Source: Bradyrhizobium sp. S69
Lineage (GTDB): Bacteria; Pseudomonadota; Alphaproteobacteria; Rhizobiales; Xanthobacteraceae
Assembly (NCBI RefSeq): GCF_009766005.1
Contig: NZ_LMUK01000038.1
Span: 179,195-243,194 of the forward strand
DNA length: 64,000 bases
Direction: 5' to 3'
The position numbers and the translations under genes were made by a program. The notes beneath the pieces were generated by a model, which made no database searches, was not told the DNA's origin, and saw only the letters and a list, made by a program, of their open reading frames with translations. This document shows positions 15,705-36,081 of the stretch, piece by piece; positions within the stretch are counted from its first letter, which is position 1, and every line of letters starts with the position of its first letter.

Positions 15705-16523
15705 ATGACTCCAGTAAGTGACATGACATCAAAAAGCACCTTGGCGCCCGAAATTGCCCCTGAGATCTCCGACGCCATCATCCGGGTTCGCGATATCACC
15801 GTGCAGTTCGGTTCGACGCGCGTGCTCGACGGGCTCAATCTCGACGTCAAGCGCGGCGAAATCCTGGGCTTCGTCGGCCCGTCCGGCGCCGGCAAGTCGG
15901 TGTTGACGCGCACCATCATCGGCCTGGTGCCGAAGGTCGCGGGACACATTGAAGTGTTCGGGGTCGATCTCGATGCCGCGAGCACCCGCGAGCGGCGTGG
16001 CGTCGAGCGCCGCTGGGGCATCCTGTTCCAGCAAGGCGCGCTGTTTTCCTCGCTGACGGTGCGGCAGAATATCCAGTTCCCGGTGCGCGAATATCTCAAC
16101 GTGTCGCAGCGGCTGCTCGACGAGATCATGGTGGCCAAGCTCGGCATGGTCGGCCTGCGTCCCGAAGTGGCCGACCGTTTCCCCTCAGAACTCTCCGGCG
16201 GCATGATCAAGCGCGTGGCGCTGGCGCGCGCGCTCGCGCTCGATCCCGAGCTTGTCTTCCTCGATGAGCCGACCTCGGGCCTCGATCCGATCGGCGCCGG
16301 CGATTTCGACGAGCTGGTCCGCACCCTCCAGCGAACTTTAGGACTGACGGTTTTCATGGTAACCCACGATCTGGATAGTCTTTATACCGCTTGCGATCGT
16401 ATCGCCGTTTTAGGGAACGGTAAGATCATTGCCGCAGGATCGATGGCCGACATGCAGGCCTCGCAGCATCCCTGGTTGAGGTCCTATTTCCACGGCAAGC
16501 GTGCCCGCGCGGTCATGGGTTAG
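15705..16523 (+). CDS. mlaF: MlaF-type ABC transporter ATP-binding protein
   Basis: A 272-residue ATPase with Walker A GPSGAGKS, Q-loop LFQQGALFSSLTVRQN, signature LSGGMIKRVALARALA, Walker B ELVFLDEPTSGLDP and the switch His in VTHDLD. This is the cytoplasmic engine of the Mla/Mce lipid transporter. ATG 15705 overlaps nothing and is 1 nt after the mlaE stop; ATG 15723 is possible. The stop codon TAG (16521-16523) lies inside the first unit of a 14-nt tandem repeat. Confidence 0.92.
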   Translation: MTPVSDMTSKSTLAPEIAPEISDAIIRVRDITVQFGSTRVLDGLNLDVKRGEILGFVGPSGAGKSVLTRTIIGLVPKVAGHIEVFGVDLDAASTRERRGVERRWGILFQQGALFSSLTVRQNIQFPVREYLNVSQRLLDEIMVAKLGMVGLRPEVADRFPSELSGGMIKRVALARALALDPELVFLDEPTSGLDPIGAGDFDELVRTLQRTLGLTVFMVTHDLDSLYTACDRIAVLGNGKIIAAGSMADMQASQHPWLRSYFHGKRARAVMG

Positions 16524-16572
16524 GGAACTTGGGTTAGCGAGCTTGGGTTAGGGAATCTGGGTTAGGCGAACT
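16517..16572 (+). repeat. Four 14-nt tandem units spanning the mlaF stop
   Basis: Units gggttagggaactt, gggttagcgagctt, gggttagggaatct and gggttaggcgaact follow each other without gaps at 16517, 16531, 16545 and 16559. The first carries the mlaF stop codon. They lie between mlaF and mlaD, about 65-120 nt upstream of the mlaD start. Confidence 0.9.
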
Positions 16573-17622: not shown

Positions 17623-17663
17623 CGGAGCCTGTCAACGGGCGCGCATTCGCGCGACCCGTTGGC
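17623..17663 (-). repeat. 41-bp palindromic repeat unit (copy 1)
   Basis: The unit reads cggagcctgtcaacgggcgc... and contains the hairpin core with arms gcgcgc and gcgcg around attc. A copy differing at one base and inverted is at 20437-20477. It sits between ggcgc and gcc flanks inside the larger repeat. Confidence 0.85.
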
Positions 17664-20422: not shown

Positions 20423-20562
20423 TAGAGCGTTTTCGAGCCAACGGGTCGCGCGAATGCGCGCCCGATGACAGGCTCCGTGGGCACCGGTTCGCGTGAAGAA
20501 AACGCGTCAAAACAAAAGACTAGAGCCCCGTTCCGATTCCATCGGAACGGAAAAGGCTCTAG
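20423..20562 (+). repeat. Dispersed repeat A, copy 1, containing a nested 41-bp unit
   Basis: The element begins tagagcgttttcgagc and resumes gtgggcaccggttcgcgtga, then cgcgtcaaaacaaaagac, and ends with a hairpin (agagcc, ccgttccgat, tcc, atcggaacgg, aaaaggctct). Bases 20437-20477 are an inserted copy of the 41-bp unit seen at 17623. The hairpin end overlaps the stop codon of the LysR gene and may end its transcription. Confidence 0.85.
20437..20477 (+). repeat. 41-bp palindromic repeat unit (copy 2), nested
   Basis: Starts gccaacgggtcgcgcgaatg and ends tgacaggctccg. It matches the reverse complement of 17623-17663 at 40 of 41 bases and interrupts repeat A, which is uninterrupted at 23228-23332. 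Confidence 0.88.
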
Positions 20563-21491
20563 GTAGCAATCTTGAATGTCAGTTCATCGGTTGTTTCTTT
20601 CCTGGCTCCGCCCATCGCGTGAACCACGTGATCGACAAACAAACGGATCCGGGGAGGGACCGGCTTGCCCGGAGCGAACACCGCGTACAATTCGATGGTC
20701 GCGCAGCGATACCCCGGCAGTAACTCGACGAGTCGTCCGGCGGCCAGATCGTGAGCGATGTCCCAGTGCGCTTCCCAGGATATGCCTTCACCAGAAAGCG
20801 CCCACTCATGCAGAACCGAACCGTCGCCGCTGGACAGGCTTCCCGAAACATGGGCCTCGTAATCGGTTCCTTCGCGGCTGAAGCGCCATAGATCGACGAG
20901 ACGGTGGCGCCGCGCCAGACGCAGGCAGTTGTGTTCGCTGAGCTCGCCGGGGGACGTCGGAGCACCCTTGCGCGCGATATAGGAAGGCGCCGCGCAGACG
21001 ATCTGGCTCGTCGTCGCGACCTTTCTCGCGATCATCGTCGGATCGCTCGGAAGCCCGAAGCGGAACACGAGATCGAAGCCGTCGGCTTCGTTTTCGAGGC
21101 CGACATCCGAGAGCACGAGATGCGCGTCGAGGCCGGGATGCTGGGCTGCGAAGGCCGCAAGCAGCGGCGCAAGTTGCCGGCGTCCAAAATCCGCGGGAGC
21201 TCCGACCCGCAGCAAGCCACGCGCCGCCCCGCCGCGCGAGGCGACCTCGGCTTCCGCGTCGCGAATTTGTTCGAGGATCGTCTTGCATCGCTCGTACAGC
21301 AGCAGGCCTTCGTCGGTAAGCCGGAACCGGCGAGAGCTGCGCTCGGCCAATCGAACACCAAGTTTTGCTTCCAACGCCGACAGCCGCCGGCTTACCGCGG
21401 CCGGAGAGGATTGCAGGGCAAGTGCTGCGGCGGATATTCCGCCGGTCTCGACGATGGTGCGAAACAGCGCAAATTCGGAAACTGAATCCAA
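20559..21491 (-). CDS. LysR family transcriptional regulator
   Basis: A 310-residue regulator. The winged helix-turn-helix spans residues 3-62 (FALFRTIVETGGISAAALAL, SPAAVSRRLSALEAKLGVRL), followed by the effector domain (LLRVGAPADFGRRQLAPLLA, LRLARRHRLVDLW, GEGISWEAHWDIAHDLAAGR). I chose TTG at 21491, since a good GGGAGG lies just upstream (aacaatt spacer) and homology starts there; longer frames start at 21599. Its stop lies at the edge of repeat A. Target genes are unknown. It is divergent from mipZ, with about 210 nt between them. Confidence 0.87.
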   Translation of the reverse strand: MDSVSEFALFRTIVETGGISAAALALQSSPAAVSRRLSALEAKLGVRLAERSSRRFRLTDEGLLLYERCKTILEQIRDAEAEVASRGGAARGLLRVGAPADFGRRQLAPLLAAFAAQHPGLDAHLVLSDVGLENEADGFDLVFRFGLPSDPTMIARKVATTSQIVCAAPSYIARKGAPTSPGELSEHNCLRLARRHRLVDLWRFSREGTDYEAHVSGSLSSGDGSVLHEWALSGEGISWEAHWDIAHDLAAGRLVELLPGYRCATIELYAVFAPGKPVPPRIRLFVDHVVHAMGGARKETTDELTFKIAT

Positions 21492-21705
21492 AATTGTTCC
21501 TCCCGCCGACGGATGCCTGCCGGCGACGGCATCCAACTTACCATTTATTGCTGCCGGCGTGGCGGCGGCAACGGCTGCGCGTGCCGTGCTGCGCCGCACA
21601 GGATGCGCCGTCTATGGTCGTCTGCGCTTGCGGGAACCCGGCGAATCAAAGCTAATTGCGCGGACCTGCCAGAGTGAAGCTTCATCATGTTTCGAAGGCG
21701 GTCCA

Positions 21706-22592: not shown

Positions 22593-23729
22593 TCAAGCCA
22601 TTTGCGGTCGCCACGCAATGACGCCCTCTGTCCGTGCGCGCACTTCAGGTGATGCAAGACAGGTCGCCACGGCCTCGAAACCGGGAAATCCAGGATACGG
22701 ACGGACCGTGGTTGGGGGGCTGTGATTGGCCGGGCAAAGGATGATTGATTCGTCGTTGCCCACGGCGTCCAGATCCAGAATCGAATTGGATCGCGTAAGA
22801 AAAAACAGCGGTCGAAGTTCGGGACCACGGCGGCGCAGGCGTGCGATCAGAGCTTCCTGGGTGGCCTTGTCGAGCCCCTGTTCCAGCATGTCGATGACCA
22901 GGGCGCTCGGGCCCTCGGTTTCCAACCCGGCGATCAGGCAGACCAGAGCCTCCGAAACGGTGGCACCGTCATCGACCAGCCACGCCAGCGTCTGATCGAC
23001 CCGCGACTTGAGGGCCGGATCGCCGTCCAGCCGTGGTTTGGCCGCCGCGTCCCCGTGCATGAGCCGATCCAGGCCGAGGAATGCGGCGCCCGGCAGGGTC
23101 TCGGCGATGCGCTTGGCCAGTTGCGTCTTGCCGCTGCCCAGCGGTCCAATGACGTAGTTCAGGGAGCGGATGTCTTGCAATTCAAACCGTTCGCCACCCC
23201 AAGGCCAGGGCAGGTCGAACGCGACGCCAGAGCCTTTTCCGTTCCGATGGAATCGGAACGGGGCTCTGGTCTTTTGTTCTGACGCGTTTTCTTCACGCGA
23301 ACCGGTGCCCACTTCGCTCGAAAACGCTCTAAATCTGGCGGACGGTCTCATCAGGTTTGCGAGTTCGCGGGCGACCGGCGCCCGCCCGCCGGCGAGGTCG
23401 GCCCGCAAGCGGCGGACCTTATCGACGGCATCGACGAGTTGATGAACGCGATCTTCGAGCGCCGCCTGATGCGCGGCCAGTGCCGGTTCAAGACTCTCGG
23501 AGCAGCCTTCCAGCACGCGCGCCACCTGGCTGAGGCTAAGGCCGAGTTCGCGCAACGCCGCGATCTCGGCAACGCGGGCCATCTCGTCGGGACCGTAGGC
23601 GCGCCAACCGGCCGCGGTGCGGACCGGGGCGATGAGACCGCGCTGCTCGTAGAGCCGCAACGCCTTGGCGGAAACGCCCAGCCGCTTGGCGGCCTCGGAA
23701 GGACTCAGGAAGGATGCGGCGGAGTTCAC
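22593..23729 (-). CDS. MerR-type regulator fused to a P-loop ATPase domain
   Basis: A 378-residue two-domain protein. Residues 5-75 are a MerR winged helix (SEAAKRLGVSAKALRLYEQR, GLIAPVRTAAGWRAYG), and 80-115 a coiled coil. Residues 133-168 are encoded by a copy of dispersed repeat A. An ABC/AAA-like ATPase domain then starts with Walker A GPLGSGKTQLAK (about 195-206) and SALVIDMLEQGLDKATQEAL as a Walker-B-like stretch. Such MerR-ATPase fusions occur in Bradyrhizobium and may couple ATP or ligand state to gene control; targets are unknown. No metal-binding cysteines are seen. It is convergent with mipZ, 17 nt apart. Confidence 0.8.
   Translation of the reverse strand: MNSAASFLSPSEAAKRLGVSAKALRLYEQRGLIAPVRTAAGWRAYGPDEMARVAEIAALRELGLSLSQVARVLEGCSESLEPALAAHQAALEDRVHQLVDAVDKVRRLRADLAGGRAPVARELANLMRPSARFRAFSSEVGTGSREENASEQKTRAPFRFHRNGKGSGVAFDLPWPWGGERFELQDIRSLNYVIGPLGSGKTQLAKRIAETLPGAAFLGLDRLMHGDAAAKPRLDGDPALKSRVDQTLAWLVDDGATVSEALVCLIAGLETEGPSALVIDMLEQGLDKATQEALIARLRRRGPELRPLFFLTRSNSILDLDAVGNDESIILCPANHSPPTTVRPYPGFPGFEAVATCLASPEVRARTEGVIAWRPQMA
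23228..23332 (-). repeat. Dispersed repeat A, copy 2, inside the merR-ATPase gene
   Basis: On the minus strand it reads tagagcgttttcgagcgaag, then tgggcaccggttcgcgtgaa, then the same terminal hairpin as the copy at 20423. It is a multiple-of-three interruption that stays open and encodes the linker FRAFSSEVGTGSREENASEQ plus about 15 more residues. Confidence 0.9.
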
Positions 23730-23861: not shown

Positions 23862-24544
23862 CTAGGTTGGTTTTTCGTCTCTTTGCAGCTGAGGTTTTTC
23901 ATACAAGACCGCGTTCAACAAAGAACGGTGCACCTCGATCTTTCCGTTGTAGCTGATCAATCCCAGCTTGCGAAATTTGTTCAGGAAGAAGCTCACCCGC
24001 GATCGGGTCGTTCCGATCATCTCCGCCAGGGTTGCTTGACTGATCGAAGCATCGATCGGCGTTGGCTTCTCATCCTTTCCGAAATGGCCAGCAGAAGAAG
24101 AAGGCGCGCGAGCCGTTTCTCGCTCGAATTGAATAGCTGGTCGATCAGATCTTCTTCCGTGCGATTGCTCCGGGTTACCAGGTAAGTCACGAAAAGCTCT
24201 GAAAACGCAGGCTGCTTGCGAAGCGCCGCCAGCATCGCCTTCCGCGTTATCGAGGTGACAAGGCACTCCTCCAGAGCCTTCGCGGTTCCGATGCGGACGG
24301 TCTGACCATTCAGACATCCCTCACCAAAAAACTGCGAAGGATTCAAGATGCCGACGACCGCTTCTTTGCCCTGCTCGGAAACGACGGTCACCTTGACCGC
24401 GCCGGACTGGATGTAAAAAATCTTATCGGCCTCTTCGCCTTGGGCGTAGATGATCCGGCCTTTACGGTACTTGGTTATCGTCTTGCCGACCCCGACTTTG
24501 GCGAGAAACATTTGGGGATCGAATTGTCGCTTTGCTGACTTCAC
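23862..24544 (-). pseudogene. Crp/Fnr family regulator, one-base frameshift
   Basis: The cyclic-nucleotide-type sensor domain is read from 24544 (YRKGRIIYAQGEEADKIFYI, QSGAVKVTVVSEQGKEAVVG, NPSQFFGEGCLNGQ) to about LARLLLLLA. The helix-turn-helix is in the next frame: HFGKDEKPTPIDASISQATL, AEMIGTTRSRVSFFLNKFRK, LGLISYNGKIEVHRSLLNAV. Homologues read ...LLLLANFGKDEK, so one A seems missing near 24084-24087 (gaaatggcc where gaaattggcc is expected). Restoring one base gives 227 codons, the usual length. No Fe-S cysteine cluster is seen, so it is not a classical FNR. A perfect 16-bp palindrome lies 51 nt upstream. Confidence 0.85.
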
Positions 24545-30339: not shown

Positions 30340-33300
30340 TCATCCCAGCCGTCCCGCCGCATGCGCCAGCAGGGTGTAGACCATGCCGGTCTCGGAGGTG
30401 AGGTGGCTGCGCAGGGCCTGCGGGCCGCGCTCGTCGCGGGCGACTTCGTCGAGCAGGCGCTCGAACTCGGCGATGTAGCGGTCGACCGTCTGCTTGAAAT
30501 TGCGGTCGGCGCGATATTTGCGGGCGACCTCGTCAAAAGCCTTCTGGCCGGCCGGCGTGTAGAGCCGCTTGGTGAAGGCCTTGCTCTCGCCGCGCTGATA
30601 GCGATCCCACATCTCGGCGGCGAGGTTGCGATCCATCAGGCGTCCGATGTCGAGCGACAGGGATTCCAGCGGGTTGACGCTCGATGCCGGCGGCTGCGGC
30701 GGACGGCTGCGCGGGATCTCCGGATTGCCGGCGCCGGTGTCGGCGCGGTTGAGCAGGCCGGAAAGCCATCCGTCATTGCTGCCATCGGCACTGGCGGGAC
30801 TGACCGGCGGAGCTTCGGTGCGCCGCGGGGCGGGCATGCCGAGGTCCGGTGGCGGCAGGCTCGATGCGCTGCTGGCGGTTTCGCGCATCCGCGGCGCTGG
30901 CGGCGGGGGCGGCGGCGCGGAACGCGGGGCGGCGTAGGTTTCGCCACGTCCGCCGACGGTTGCCAGCATCGGCTCTTCCTCGCGCTGCACGCTGGCGCGG
31001 CCGCTGCTCGCGCTCACCACGTCGAGCCCGCGGCCGTGGCGCGCCACGATCCGGTTGAGCTCGGCCAGCGCCTCGATCTGATCGACGATTACCTTGCGCA
31101 TCTGCGAGGTGCTCTCGGCGGCTTCCTGCGGCATCTCCAGCACGCCACGGCGAAGTTCGTTGCGCGTGGCTTCCAGCTCGTGCTGCATTTCGCCGGCCAT
31201 CTGCTTCATGCTCGAGACCATGTTCGCGAACTTGTCGGCGGACTCCCGGAACATGGCGTCCGCTTCCTGAGTGCCCTGCTGGTAGAGCTGGCTCATGGTG
31301 TCGGCGGTGAGCCGGCGCTCTTCCTCGGCGGACTGACGGACCGCCTCGAACTGCCGGGTGATCGCAGCCGAACCGGCGCCGGCGGTTTCCGCCACCACGC
31401 GGGCGATGTCGCGGGCGCGCTCTTCGGCGGCCGCCAGCGATTCATCGAGCAGGCTGGTGAACCGCGACAGCCGCTGATCGAGATCGGTGGTTCGCAGATC
31501 GATGGTGGTGACCAGCGATTCCAGCGTCGCCTTGCGCTCGGCGACCGACGCGGTGGTGCTGCGGTTGCTTTGTTCGACCACGGTTGCGGCCTCGACCAGC
31601 GTCTTGCCGTGGGTTTCGAACTGGGTCGACAGCGTGCCGAGGTTATCCAGCGCTTCGGAGGTCTTGCCGTTGAACACGTTCAACTGGTCTTCCAGCGCCT
31701 GCGAGGCGATGCCGTTGCGCGAGGTGACGTCGTTCATCGCGGTGACGAAATCGGCGACACGGGTCACCAGCGCGCGCTCCAGCGAGTTGAGGTTGTCGTG
31801 GGCGCCGGTGAGCACTTCCTGCAGCAGGATATTGCCTTCACGCAGCCGCTCGAACAACGCCACCGTGTCGGTGCGCAGGATCTTGCTGGTTTCCTGCATC
31901 TCGGTGACCGCCGCGATCGAGACCTGACGCGACTGCTCGATCGCGGTCCGCGACGACAGCTCGAGGTCTTTCAGCGACTTGTTGACCGCCCCGGTGGCCA
32001 ATTCGCCGGCCGAGGTAATGGTTCGCGCGACGTCGCTGCCGTTGGTGGTCAACGACTGCGAGAAGGCCTGGCCGCGGGTTTCGATGGCGCGCAGCGCCTC
32101 CGACGTGACGCGGTCGATATCGAGCGTGAGCTGGCTGGTCTTGCCGCTGATGGCGTCGACCAGCGTCCCGCGCTTGCCGTCGATCATCTGCGACAGCCGA
32201 TCGGTCTGCTGCTGCACATAGGTGACGATTTCGTCGGTCTTGCCGGTCATGGTGGAACCGAACGAGCCGCTGGCGGCGAGCACCGAGCGCTCGATATCGG
32301 CCGAGGTCGACTTGATCTTGGAGCTGATCTCGTTCGACGCGGCGACCAGCGCGCTCTGTGCATTGACCGCCGAGGTCTGGATATTGTCGGTTGTGGTGAC
32401 GGTGACCACACCGAGCGAGCGCTCGATTTCGATGGAGATCGCTCTGATCTGGCTCGCAGCGTCGGACGAGGTCGCGGCGAACGAGCTTTGCGCCTCGCGG
32501 GCGCTGTTGAGGATCGAGGTCGCGGTATCCGCGCCGACCGCCGTCAGGGTGCGTTCGACATCGATCGCCAGCGACTTGACGTGGTTGGCGGCCTCCGAGG
32601 AAGCGCTGACCAGCATGCTCTGCGCGTCGCGGGCGCCGGAGGTGATCTGTTCGGCGGTGGCGGTGCCTGCCATCGACAGCGAGCGCTGCATGTCGGCAGC
32701 GAGCGACTTGACCTGGCTGGCCGCGTCGGCGGACGCCGTGACGAGAACGCTCTGGGCTTCGCGCGCCCCCGATGTGATCGTCTCTGCGGTCGACGTTCCC
32801 GCGCTCGACAGCGAGCGCTGCATGTCAGCGGCGAGCGACTTGACCTGGCTCGCAGCATCGGCGGAAGCCGTGACGAGAACGCTCTGGGCTTCGCGCGCCC
32901 CCGATGTGATCGTCTCCGCGGTGGACGTTCCCGCGCTCGACAGCGAACGCTGCACGTCGGCGGACAACGACTTGATCTGATTGGCCACTTCCGTGGAAGC
33001 CGAAAGCAGCGTGCCGTGGGCGTCGCGTGCGCCGGCGGTAATTGCGTCGGCGGTCGATGTTCCCGCCATCGACAGCGAGCGCTGGACATCGGCGGCGAGC
33101 GACTTGACCTGGCTCGCGGCATCCGCGGAAGCGGTGACCAACGTGGTCTGGACTTCACGGGCGCCCGACAGGATCGACGAGGCGGTAGCGCTGCCGGCGG
33201 CCGAGAGCGTTCGCTCGACGTCGGCCGACAGCAGCCTGATCTGGGTAGCCGCTTCCCCGGACGAGGCAACCAGGGTTGCCTGGGCTTCGCGGGCGCTGGT

Positions 33301-36081
33301 CAGGATCGAGTTCGCAGCGCCAGTGCCGACCGCGGTGAGGGCGCTTTCGACTTCCGAGGACGTCAGCTTCAATTGGGCGCCGACGTCGGAGGAAACCGAC
33401 AGCAGCGATTGTTGCGCGGTGCGCGCGCCGGTCTGGATGGTCTCGCTGGTGTTGACCACGAGGTTGGTCAGCGAGCGCTCGGCGTCCTCGACATGCGACC
33501 TGATCCCGGCGGACAATTCCTCGGCGCGTGCCATCAGGCCGTCGCTGGCCTGGCGGCCGCTGCTTTCGATACGGCCTGCCACGGCTTCGACGCGCGAGCC
33601 CAGCAGGTCCTCGAACTGCGAGACCCGGGTGTCGATATCGGCGGCGACCGCGCCGACACGGGTTTCGATACCCTGATGAATCTCCTGGAACCGCGCCGTG
33701 ATGGCGTCGGTGAGCTGGGCGCTGCGGCCATCGATGGTCTGGGTCGCGGTGGTGATGCGCTGGTCGACGGCGTCGACCGCGAGCGCGGTGCCGGCGGTGA
33801 GGGAGGTGGCGAGGTGGGTGAGCCGCGAGTCGATCGACTGGATCGCCTGCGTTGCGCCGTCCGTCAGCGTCAATGTCAGTTGCGTGAGGCGGGTGTCGAT
33901 CGAGTGGATCGCCTGCGTCGTGCCGTCCGTCACCGACGTGGTCAGGTGCGTGAGGCGGCTGTCGATCGAATGGATCGCCTGCGCGGCGCCGTCGGTCAGC
34001 GACGTCGACAAATGGGCGATGCGGCCATCGATGGTCTCGGTGACCGATTTGGCGCGCGTATCGAACGTGTTCTCGAGCAGGCCGAGCCGGCCGTCGATGG
34101 TATCCGTCACCGCCTTGGCGCGGGTATCGAAGGTCTCTTCCAGCGACGCGAGCCGGCTACCCAGGGTTTCGGTGACCGACTTGGCACGGGTATCGAACGT
34201 CTGTTCCAGCGATTGGGCGCGGGTATCGAAGGTATGTTCCAGCGATTGCAGGTGTCCGCCGACGGATTCGTCGAAGGTCCTGATCTTGGTGTCGAGCGAG
34301 GTATCGAGATCGGCGACGCGATTGCCGAGCGTGGTCTCGAATTGCAGCAGGCGCTGGTCGAGCGAAGCGGTGATCTCGCCGCTGTTCGAGGTCAGGCGGT
34401 TGTCGAAGGTGTCGACATAGGTCTTGAGGCTTTCGGAGATGTCCTGCGTGCGCTGGCCCATCCGCTCGACGATCTCACCGCCGAAGGTTTTGACGGTGCG
34501 GTCGAATTCCGAGATGTGACGGGTAATCAGCGCGCCCAGCGTGCCGGAGTCGCGGGCGAATCTTTCGGCGAGGTCGCCGCCCTGGTTCTTCACCAGTTCG
34601 TCGAACGCGCTCATCTGCAAGGACAGCGAATCGTGCGCGGTTTCGGTCTGGCTGACGACCTTGGCCATCAGCGAACTGACGGTGGCGTCGAGCGCGTCGC
34701 TGGCCTTGTCGCCGCTGTTCATGATCTGGTTCGCCAGCCGATTGCCGGCGTCGTCGATCTTGCTGACCAGATCGCCGCTGCGCAGTTCCAGCTCAAGCAG
34801 CAGCGAGTCGGAGGAGTTTTTCAGCGAGTCGTGAACCTGTTCGGTGCGGTCGGAAATGCCGTCGACGATGGTGGAGGAACGCTGCTCGAATTCGCTGGTA
34901 ATGCGGTCGATGCGCTCGTTCAGCATCTCGTGGACGCGGTCGGCGAGATCGACGAACTCGTCGTGTACGTGCCCGGTCTTGAAATTGAGGCTGGTGGTGA
35001 GGCGCTCGCTGGCGTCGAGCACCGCGCGGGTGGTCTCGGCGCTGGCTTCCTCGAGGCGGTCGAGCAGGTCGCCGCCGCGCTCGCCGAGCGCCAGGATCAT
35101 GTTGTCGCCGGCGTTGCTCAGCGCGCTGGTGATGTGGGCGCCGCGCTCCTCGAGCGCGCCGGTGATGCTTTTGGCGACTTCATCGACGCGCGATGCGATG
35201 GCGTCCGAGATCAGCGCGATGTCGTGGCGCAGGTCGATCTGCACGCCGGAAATGGCGCTGCGAACCTGTTCGGCCTGACCGACCAGATTGTCGCGCTGAT
35301 GGGCGATGTCCTGCAGCAGCGCGCGGATGCGCACTTCATTGTCGCTGTAGGCGCGTTCCAGCGCGGAGACTTCGTTGGCAACCAGGGTTTCGAGTTCGCC
35401 GGCGCGCGCGATTGCGCGTTCGACGCCGTCGCCCATCGCCGCGACTTCGCGGCGGATCGCCTGGCCGACGGTGACCATGGAGTCGCTCGCAGCACCCTCG
35501 GGCTCGGAGAAGCGGATCGCGACCTGCGCCATCGACTGCGCGATCATGCGCAATTCCTGGCCGCGCCAGGACAGCGCCGCGAGGAAATACAGCAGCAGCA
35601 CCGGTGCGACGAACAGCGCCGCAAGCCCGGCCAGCGCCAGGGTGCCACCGCTGCCCTGGCCCACCAAGGCCTGCAGCGAGGGCAGGAAGCTGATCGTCAA
35701 CAAGGCCGCGCCGACCACCCAGACCACGGTGAAAAGCGTCGCGAGCGTAAAAGCGCTGCGGGCGGGGCGGCCCTTCTGGATGGCTTGCAGGATCTGCCCG
35801 ATGGTTTCGCGGTCGTCATTGGCGGCGCGTCGGGGCGTGGTCGGGCGCGGTTCTTCGATCGGATCGAAGATCGGCCGGTCGTTGCCGGGCCGGGCCTCGA
35901 AGGTCGGCTCGTTGAAGATCGGCGGCGGCGAGGCCTGAGACGTCATCTCATCGTGGAGCCCATCGTGATCGCGATCATGGTCGGTCCCGGAATGCGAGAC
36001 GTCGCTGATGTTCAGGGCTTCCTGAATGGCAGAAAGCGCGACTTCGGTAGGGTCTTTGGCCTTCTTGGGATTGTTCGCCAT
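30340..36081 (-). CDS. Giant coiled-coil membrane protein, GPR/RgsE-like growth pole protein
   Basis: A 1,913-residue protein. An acidic N-terminus (1-105) precedes two membrane helices (about 111-131 and 147-171). A helical domain of about 1,400 residues follows with apolipoprotein-like heptad/hendecad repeats, then a Pro-rich stretch (about 1,710-1,790) and a folded end (DRNLAAEMWDRYQRGESKAF, YTLLAHAAGRLG). Between about residues 900 and 1,290 run eight or nine 44-residue repeats. In Agrobacterium and Sinorhizobium, a protein of this size and architecture (GPR/RgsE) forms a ring at the growing pole and is needed for polar growth. Homology is inferred from architecture. A long antisense frame exists only as a shadow. 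Confidence 0.82.
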   Translation of the reverse strand: MANNPKKAKDPTEVALSAIQEALNISDVSHSGTDHDRDHDGLHDEMTSQASPPPIFNEPTFEARPGNDRPIFDPIEEPRPTTPRRAANDDRETIGQILQAIQKGRPARSAFTLATLFTVVWVVGAALLTISFLPSLQALVGQGSGGTLALAGLAALFVAPVLLLYFLAALSWRGQELRMIAQSMAQVAIRFSEPEGAASDSMVTVGQAIRREVAAMGDGVERAIARAGELETLVANEVSALERAYSDNEVRIRALLQDIAHQRDNLVGQAEQVRSAISGVQIDLRHDIALISDAIASRVDEVAKSITGALEERGAHITSALSNAGDNMILALGERGGDLLDRLEEASAETTRAVLDASERLTTSLNFKTGHVHDEFVDLADRVHEMLNERIDRITSEFEQRSSTIVDGISDRTEQVHDSLKNSSDSLLLELELRSGDLVSKIDDAGNRLANQIMNSGDKASDALDATVSSLMAKVVSQTETAHDSLSLQMSAFDELVKNQGGDLAERFARDSGTLGALITRHISEFDRTVKTFGGEIVERMGQRTQDISESLKTYVDTFDNRLTSNSGEITASLDQRLLQFETTLGNRVADLDTSLDTKIRTFDESVGGHLQSLEHTFDTRAQSLEQTFDTRAKSVTETLGSRLASLEETFDTRAKAVTDTIDGRLGLLENTFDTRAKSVTETIDGRIAHLSTSLTDGAAQAIHSIDSRLTHLTTSVTDGTTQAIHSIDTRLTQLTLTLTDGATQAIQSIDSRLTHLATSLTAGTALAVDAVDQRITTATQTIDGRSAQLTDAITARFQEIHQGIETRVGAVAADIDTRVSQFEDLLGSRVEAVAGRIESSGRQASDGLMARAEELSAGIRSHVEDAERSLTNLVVNTSETIQTGARTAQQSLLSVSSDVGAQLKLTSSEVESALTAVGTGAANSILTSAREAQATLVASSGEAATQIRLLSADVERTLSAAGSATASSILSGAREVQTTLVTASADAASQVKSLAADVQRSLSMAGTSTADAITAGARDAHGTLLSASTEVANQIKSLSADVQRSLSSAGTSTAETITSGAREAQSVLVTASADAASQVKSLAADMQRSLSSAGTSTAETITSGAREAQSVLVTASADAASQVKSLAADMQRSLSMAGTATAEQITSGARDAQSMLVSASSEAANHVKSLAIDVERTLTAVGADTATSILNSAREAQSSFAATSSDAASQIRAISIEIERSLGVVTVTTTDNIQTSAVNAQSALVAASNEISSKIKSTSADIERSVLAASGSFGSTMTGKTDEIVTYVQQQTDRLSQMIDGKRGTLVDAISGKTSQLTLDIDRVTSEALRAIETRGQAFSQSLTTNGSDVARTITSAGELATGAVNKSLKDLELSSRTAIEQSRQVSIAAVTEMQETSKILRTDTVALFERLREGNILLQEVLTGAHDNLNSLERALVTRVADFVTAMNDVTSRNGIASQALEDQLNVFNGKTSEALDNLGTLSTQFETHGKTLVEAATVVEQSNRSTTASVAERKATLESLVTTIDLRTTDLDQRLSRFTSLLDESLAAAEERARDIARVVAETAGAGSAAITRQFEAVRQSAEEERRLTADTMSQLYQQGTQEADAMFRESADKFANMVSSMKQMAGEMQHELEATRNELRRGVLEMPQEAAESTSQMRKVIVDQIEALAELNRIVARHGRGLDVVSASSGRASVQREEEPMLATVGGRGETYAAPRSAPPPPPPAPRMRETASSASSLPPPDLGMPAPRRTEAPPVSPASADGSNDGWLSGLLNRADTGAGNPEIPRSRPPQPPASSVNPLESLSLDIGRLMDRNLAAEMWDRYQRGESKAFTKRLYTPAGQKAFDEVARKYRADRNFKQTVDRYIAEFERLLDEVARDERGPQALRSHLTSETGMVYTLLAHAAGRLG
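32700..32964 (-). repeat. Two nearly identical 132-nt intragenic repeats
   Basis: Two tandem units encode the same 44 residues (SADVQRSLSSAGTSTAETIT then SGAREAQSVLVTASADAASQ) apart from one or two changes. DNA identity is high enough (for example gagaacgctctgggcttcgc in both) to suggest a recent duplication or gene conversion. Confidence 0.85.

Follow-up and report, generated by a model that had tools for sequence, protein, structure and literature searches.

The window analysed here, a stretch of 64,000 nucleotides of Bradyrhizobium sp. S69 DNA, carries on its minus strand a gene that encodes a MerR-ATPase fusion protein, and a copy of a dispersed palindromic element lies within this gene between the parts that encode the two domains (feature coordinates are listed in Table 1). 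The reading frame in the ORF list runs without interruption across the whole length of the gene, the insert included. Pfam MerR_1 matches residues 9–74 of the protein, the structure model has a long helix at residues 80–113, and AAA matches that fall below the Pfam cut-offs begin at residue 192; the NCBIfam models matched by the protein are all of the MerR family, and every one of them scores below its cut-off. A structure search with the model gave ABC-type ATPases as the best matches for the C-terminal part, and SoxR is among the matches listed. G195, G198, G200, K201 and T202 are invariant in the orthologue alignment, and we take the GPLGSGKT sequence at residues 195–202 to be a Walker A motif and the C-terminal part to be a P-loop ATPase. 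Across 30 orthologues 84 residues are invariant, and the window protein keeps 83 of them. The nearest orthologue (L061) is 78% identical if the gap at the insert is counted and 85% identical if it is excluded, and the two genes differ at 36, 24 and 106 first, second and third codon positions, respectively (dN/dS ~0.16); because most of this divergence predates the insertion, the ratio speaks for a constrained gene and not for function after the insertion.

Table 1. Features of the MerR-ATPase gene, its inserted element and two further element copies
Feature	Position	Strand	Details and basis
Host gene, MerR-ATPase fusion	22593..23729	-	378 aa, GTG start, stop included; ORF list, Pfam, orthologue alignment
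MerR HTH and coiled-coil part, residues 1–133	23331..23729	-	Pfam MerR_1 and modelled helix
C-terminal ATPase part, residues 168–378	22596..23228	-	Weak AAA matches, ABC-type ATPase structure matches
GPLGSGKT motif, residues 195–202	23124..23147	-	Orthologue alignment
Inserted dispersed palindromic element, 102 nt, residues 134–167 (34 codons)	23229..23330	-	Consensus match, absence from orthologues
Stem-loop of the element's second module, retained in coding RNA	23227..23269	-	RNA fold
T-rich stretch adjoining the stem-loop	23270..23281	+ (opposite to gene)	Sequence
Second window copy of the element (L151), 137-nt form with alternative middle module	20424..20560	+	84-nt inverted match, 98%
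O-antigen ligase gene with 138-nt in-frame element copy (L261)	G000:C31:161696-163033	element in reverse orientation	Pfam Wzy_C

Two overlapping minus-strand ORFs near this gene (24017–24544 and 23862–24317, together 23862–24544) look like one gene split by a frameshift or sequencing error, presumably that of a Crp/Fnr-type regulator. Elsewhere in the window, long coding-type repeat arrays with periods of 132 and 66 nt occupy 32281–34244, and a short tandem array of a 14-nt unit containing GGGTTAG lies at 16509–16564.

The inserted copy has 2 mismatches over 102 positions to the repeat consensus, which was compiled by hand from aligned copies, and a 32-nt core of the element, with up to 3 mismatches allowed, occurs at 127 places in the 7.5 Mb genome (62 contigs) against none for a reversed-pattern control; an earlier note on this DNA had claimed a complete repeat copy in frame in the MerR-ATPase gene, and these values bear it out. 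The limits given there, 23228–23332, do enclose the element, but they overshoot it by one base at one end and by two at the opposite end, and the insert encodes residues 134–167 instead of 133–168, one residue fewer at each end. Pfam and the structure model agree with the placing of the repeat between the MerR coiled coil and the ATPase. In that model (31 sequences, mean pLDDT 77, pTM 0.55) residues 130–166 have pLDDT values below 50 and are flanked by better-modelled domains. The insertion site fits a flexible inter-domain linker that is modelled as disordered, and low pLDDT is also to be expected of a segment that lacks aligned relatives.

The insert lies exactly between the two domains, but was it the repeat that joined them? 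Two histories had been put forward: in one, a MerR gene and an ATPase gene became a single gene through a linker that the repeat provided; in the other, the repeat inserted into a fusion that already existed. Alignment of the orthologues decides between them: in 71/71 orthologue loci MerR and ATPase are in one frame and the 34-residue insert is absent, and the genera concerned are Bradyrhizobium and also Caulobacter, Phenylobacterium, Devosia, Mesorhizobium, Rhizobium and Variovorax. Since the fusion is present without the insert in all of these loci, the repeat entered the fusion and did not build it; the first history is excluded by the data seen, and we give it next to no chance. The 71 loci are made up of 29 from the 195 genomes searched (the window genome included) and 42 of the 80 loci kept from a second search for relatives, which found 91; in most of the 38 left out, the match is chiefly to the part of the protein that the element encodes. 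Among the 71, at least 12 duplicate another genome in the set (identical over a 300-nt probe), and one (L102) spans residues 1–193 only. Were this peptide found in species without the repeat, it would point to native coding sequence; it is present in no orthologue examined. A second carrier of the insert was not found among 60 relatives, so that it occurs in one genome only of those seen, and no close strain with or without it was found, the nearest orthologue being the one described above. Genomes with an empty orthologue are still rich in the repeat, with 110 places in one (G004) and 107 in another (G010).

Could the open frame be an accident in a gene that no longer functions, or the join an assembly error? 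An open frame is in itself slight evidence, given that three of the element's six frames are open, and the genome is assembled in 62 contigs, in which repeats can cause misjoins. However, the sequences on either side of the insert are parts of a single orthologous gene, follow one another in the correct order and frame and keep 83 of the 84 invariant residues; a misjoin at a repeat would not bring two pieces of one gene together again. A dead gene or a misassembly is, in our estimation, distinctly unlikely.

Copies of the element have common ends, AGAGCG...GCTCT, in the copy alignment, and most aligned copies have terminal inverted repeats (AGAGC...GCTCT) of 5–6 bp only. The first module contains a GCGTTTTC/GAAAACGC stem, the second a strong stem-loop, and a third lengthens part of the copies; an alternative middle module occurs in some copies, and the modules are in this sense exchangeable. 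In 62 of 99 copies the element could be delimited at both ends; these are 97–138 nt long, and the commonest lengths among them are 102 nt (20 copies), 137 nt (10) and 98 nt (9). A shorter core is present in 97/98 genomes of the genus, at a few to 164 places each, and across the order in 10/121 genomes, three of the 10 being from Bradyrhizobium itself. In a plasmid collection, element-like translations were found in 4 Bradyrhizobium plasmids at 6 places altogether, and no annotated gene lies over any of the 4 best places listed. The window holds a second copy (Table 1), and the TAG stop (20559–20561, minus strand) of the neighbouring ORF 20559–21599, presumably a LysR-type regulator, comes from the element copy at 20424–20561. 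At 17623–17663, 41 nt match the alternative middle module of 20437–20477 in inverted orientation (98%), and this is probably another copy or part of one.

The coding RNA of the MerR-ATPase gene retains the stem-loop of the second module, and the 121-nt stretch that holds it has an RNA fold z-score of −5.4. The earlier note had called this hairpin terminator-like and suggested that it might affect transcription inside the gene; as a terminator or RNA-processing site it would lower expression of the ATPase half. Such an effect would accord with the stability of the stem-loop in the predicted fold and with the positions of the copies, which lie more often between convergent (24) than divergent (6) genes (of the 99 copies, 34 have co-directional flanking genes and 35 are unclear, directions being called by a small codon model). 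However, the T-rich tail is missing on the gene's strand, where the RNA downstream of the stem-loop reads GCGUCGCG and has no U-rich run, the T-rich stretch being on the other strand. In the terminator scan the gene's strand had no terminator-like site and the opposite strand had 1 (chance expectation 0.7), and copies with co-directional flanks show no bias towards the T-rich-tail strand (22 against 12). The stem-loop is thus kept, but the terminator suggestion is weak, and we consider a terminator or processing site within the gene very unlikely.

Copies elsewhere had been described as lying in non-coding DNA, and this is largely but not wholly so, since 2/110 unique copies from the window genome (the window copy included) are in frame within a gene and score positively for coding on either side. 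The 110 copies are part of the genome's places, and out-of-frame copies that break genes fall outside the count. Scores were obtained with a discriminative codon model built on 21 window ORFs, and the margin of the window copy is small (0.30 vs 0.22 on its left side); this model replaced an earlier codon-score survey in which frames were not separated. Four rows passed the bare in-frame rule and two were retained; the others, L185 and a second place in L183, were discounted for negative scores on both sides and a negative left score, respectively.

The copy in the O-antigen ligase gene (Table 1) is one base longer than the usual 137-nt long form, so that the frame is kept, and the element is absent from 11/11 ligase orthologues, two of which have a few other residues at the site. 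In another Bradyrhizobium (G155) a 599-aa membrane protein, which has no Pfam match, contains an element-encoded stretch of 34 aa, read in the frame that the window copy also uses, and 11/11 of its orthologues (84–89% identical by piece) are empty at this site. Among 20 element matches with long open frames from the listed rows (19 in other genomes and 1 in the window genome), only one (L246) shows coding evidence on both sides; two (L245 and L260) have no spanning frame, and the rest show such evidence on one side or neither. In some copies among L241–L260 from other Bradyrhizobium genomes the coding signal is confined to the downstream side of a spanning open frame, as if the copy lay just upstream of a gene, and element copies so placed could lengthen annotated N-termini.

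In-frame insertions recur in three genes, the frame of the window gene is intact and the element consensus is open in 3/6 frames, and all of this would accord with an exapted insert, one whose 34 residues have gained a function (for example, by altering how long the linker is that connects DNA binding with ATP hydrolysis) and are kept by selection. However, the insert occurs in only one of the genomes seen, it lies so near the repeat consensus that it bears no sign of adaptation, in-frame copies are rare, and multiples of three are not in excess among the copy lengths (24/62 placed copies); the family therefore has no general preference for coding lengths. Exaptation appears to us quite unlikely.

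The net insert is one element at all three coding sites (102 nt in the regulator, 102 nt in the membrane protein and 138 nt in the ligase), the sites read TT^GG, CT^GG and CC^AG, and no target-site duplication common to the three mapped junctions is visible. The native right flank is backed by relatives for the membrane protein and the ligase (for the latter by the nearest relative only), and at the window copy the nearest orthologue has a different sequence and so does not fix it. A target duplication of 2 bp (TA) was considered and dropped, as the native sequence right of the membrane-protein site is GG and the nearest ligase orthologue has CCTGG. No transposase tied to the element was found in a search of Y1 transposases; the window genome has two Y1_Tnp genes, near which the element gave chance-level matches only, with no RAYT link. 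Insertion without target duplication recalls elements moved by single-strand transposases, and if it is true that the 102-nt unit enters DNA without target duplication, this would be a clue to how such elements move. A broader reading holds that an element present across the genus enters YY^RG sites without target duplication and repeatedly adds a flexible peptide, and that some of the additions, this linker among them, change function and are selected; the peptide would then be added ready-made, since the commonest form is exactly 34 codons long and 3/6 frames are open. We rate this broader reading as unlikely, though not negligible.

Very probably, then, the event was the insertion of a non-autonomous dispersed palindromic element of Bradyrhizobium into a MerR-ATPase gene that already existed and is conserved. 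The element lies between the two domains as a net insert of 102 nt, which is one element length and so leaves the frame intact whatever the codon phase; the frame it uses is open, and both domains and 83/84 invariant residues are still in place. The insert may persist because a flexible linker tolerates 34 extra residues, its effect on the protein would be neutral or mild, and selection would presumably remove insertions that break genes.

A literature search, with subscription papers mostly outside its reach, found no report of this element in proteins, and papers matching the letters of the repeat were judged unrelated from their titles. Rfam RF02600 (the Brucella sRNA BASRCI27) gave a whole-model match at 23179–23339 with an E-value of 2.4e-5, but its 35.8 bits are below the gathering score of 59.8 and the aligned stretch takes in flanking gene sequence. 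Rhizobium-specific intergenic mosaic elements (RIME; Osteras 1995) are reportedly mosaics of palindromic modules in rhizobia; compared by description, our element also has exchangeable modules, and RIME are named intergenic whereas the window copy is coding.

Several other repeat classes have been described, and the publications cited here are drawn on for the parts of their text that were available. GTAG/CGTC REPs, which include Bradyrhizobium families, are stem-loop units of 20–40 bp that lie mainly between convergent and co-directional genes, and REPs inside genes have been seen in several species (PMC3733652). Like them, the element is a stem-loop repeat in Bradyrhizobium with similar flanking-gene directions that sometimes lies inside ORFs; unlike them, as far as the available text goes, it is 97–138 nt long with two or three modules and lies away from the two Y1 transposase genes of the genome. 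A CGTC occurs within its first module. Br-REP1 and Br-REP2 of Bradyrhizobium japonicum USDA 110 are multi-palindrome repeats in 3′-UTRs (PMC5082802); they share the genus and the multi-palindrome build with the element, but the consensus sequences printed in the accessible part of that paper differ from it by eye. Like MITEs, the element has terminal inverted repeats, although of 5–6 bp only. Target-site duplication is reported in many described bacterial MITEs (PMC2229807, available text), whereas none is shared by the three coding junctions of the element.

Close to the element by description are the Rickettsia palindromic elements (RPEs, reviewed in PMC10969869), which in the available text are palindromic insertions, reported as 105–146 bp long, in frame in conserved genes that have orthologues without them (PMC2229807, PMC10969869); nearly half are reported inside ORFs (PMC10969869), and in-frame ORF fusions also arise from Neisseria and enterobacterial repeats (PMC2229807). 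Both are dispersed and palindromic, of similar size and in frame in a conserved gene with empty orthologues, and they are unlike in that 2/110 copies are in frame within genes here, against the nearly half of RPEs that the accessible part of the review places in ORFs. The kind defined by the RPEs, a repeat in frame where orthologues are empty, is found here in three genes (71/71, 11/11 and 11/11 empty orthologues). A palindromic insertion of this kind is also said, by the title of a paper, to occur in Wolbachia. The window insertion provides a clean case of repeat DNA turned coding sequence in a free-living bacterium and revises the view in which the fusion was made by the repeat, and the many empty orthologues together with the two parallel cases make tolerance of in-frame repeat insertions testable outside Rickettsia. 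It is a new example of a kind of insertion known from other bacteria.
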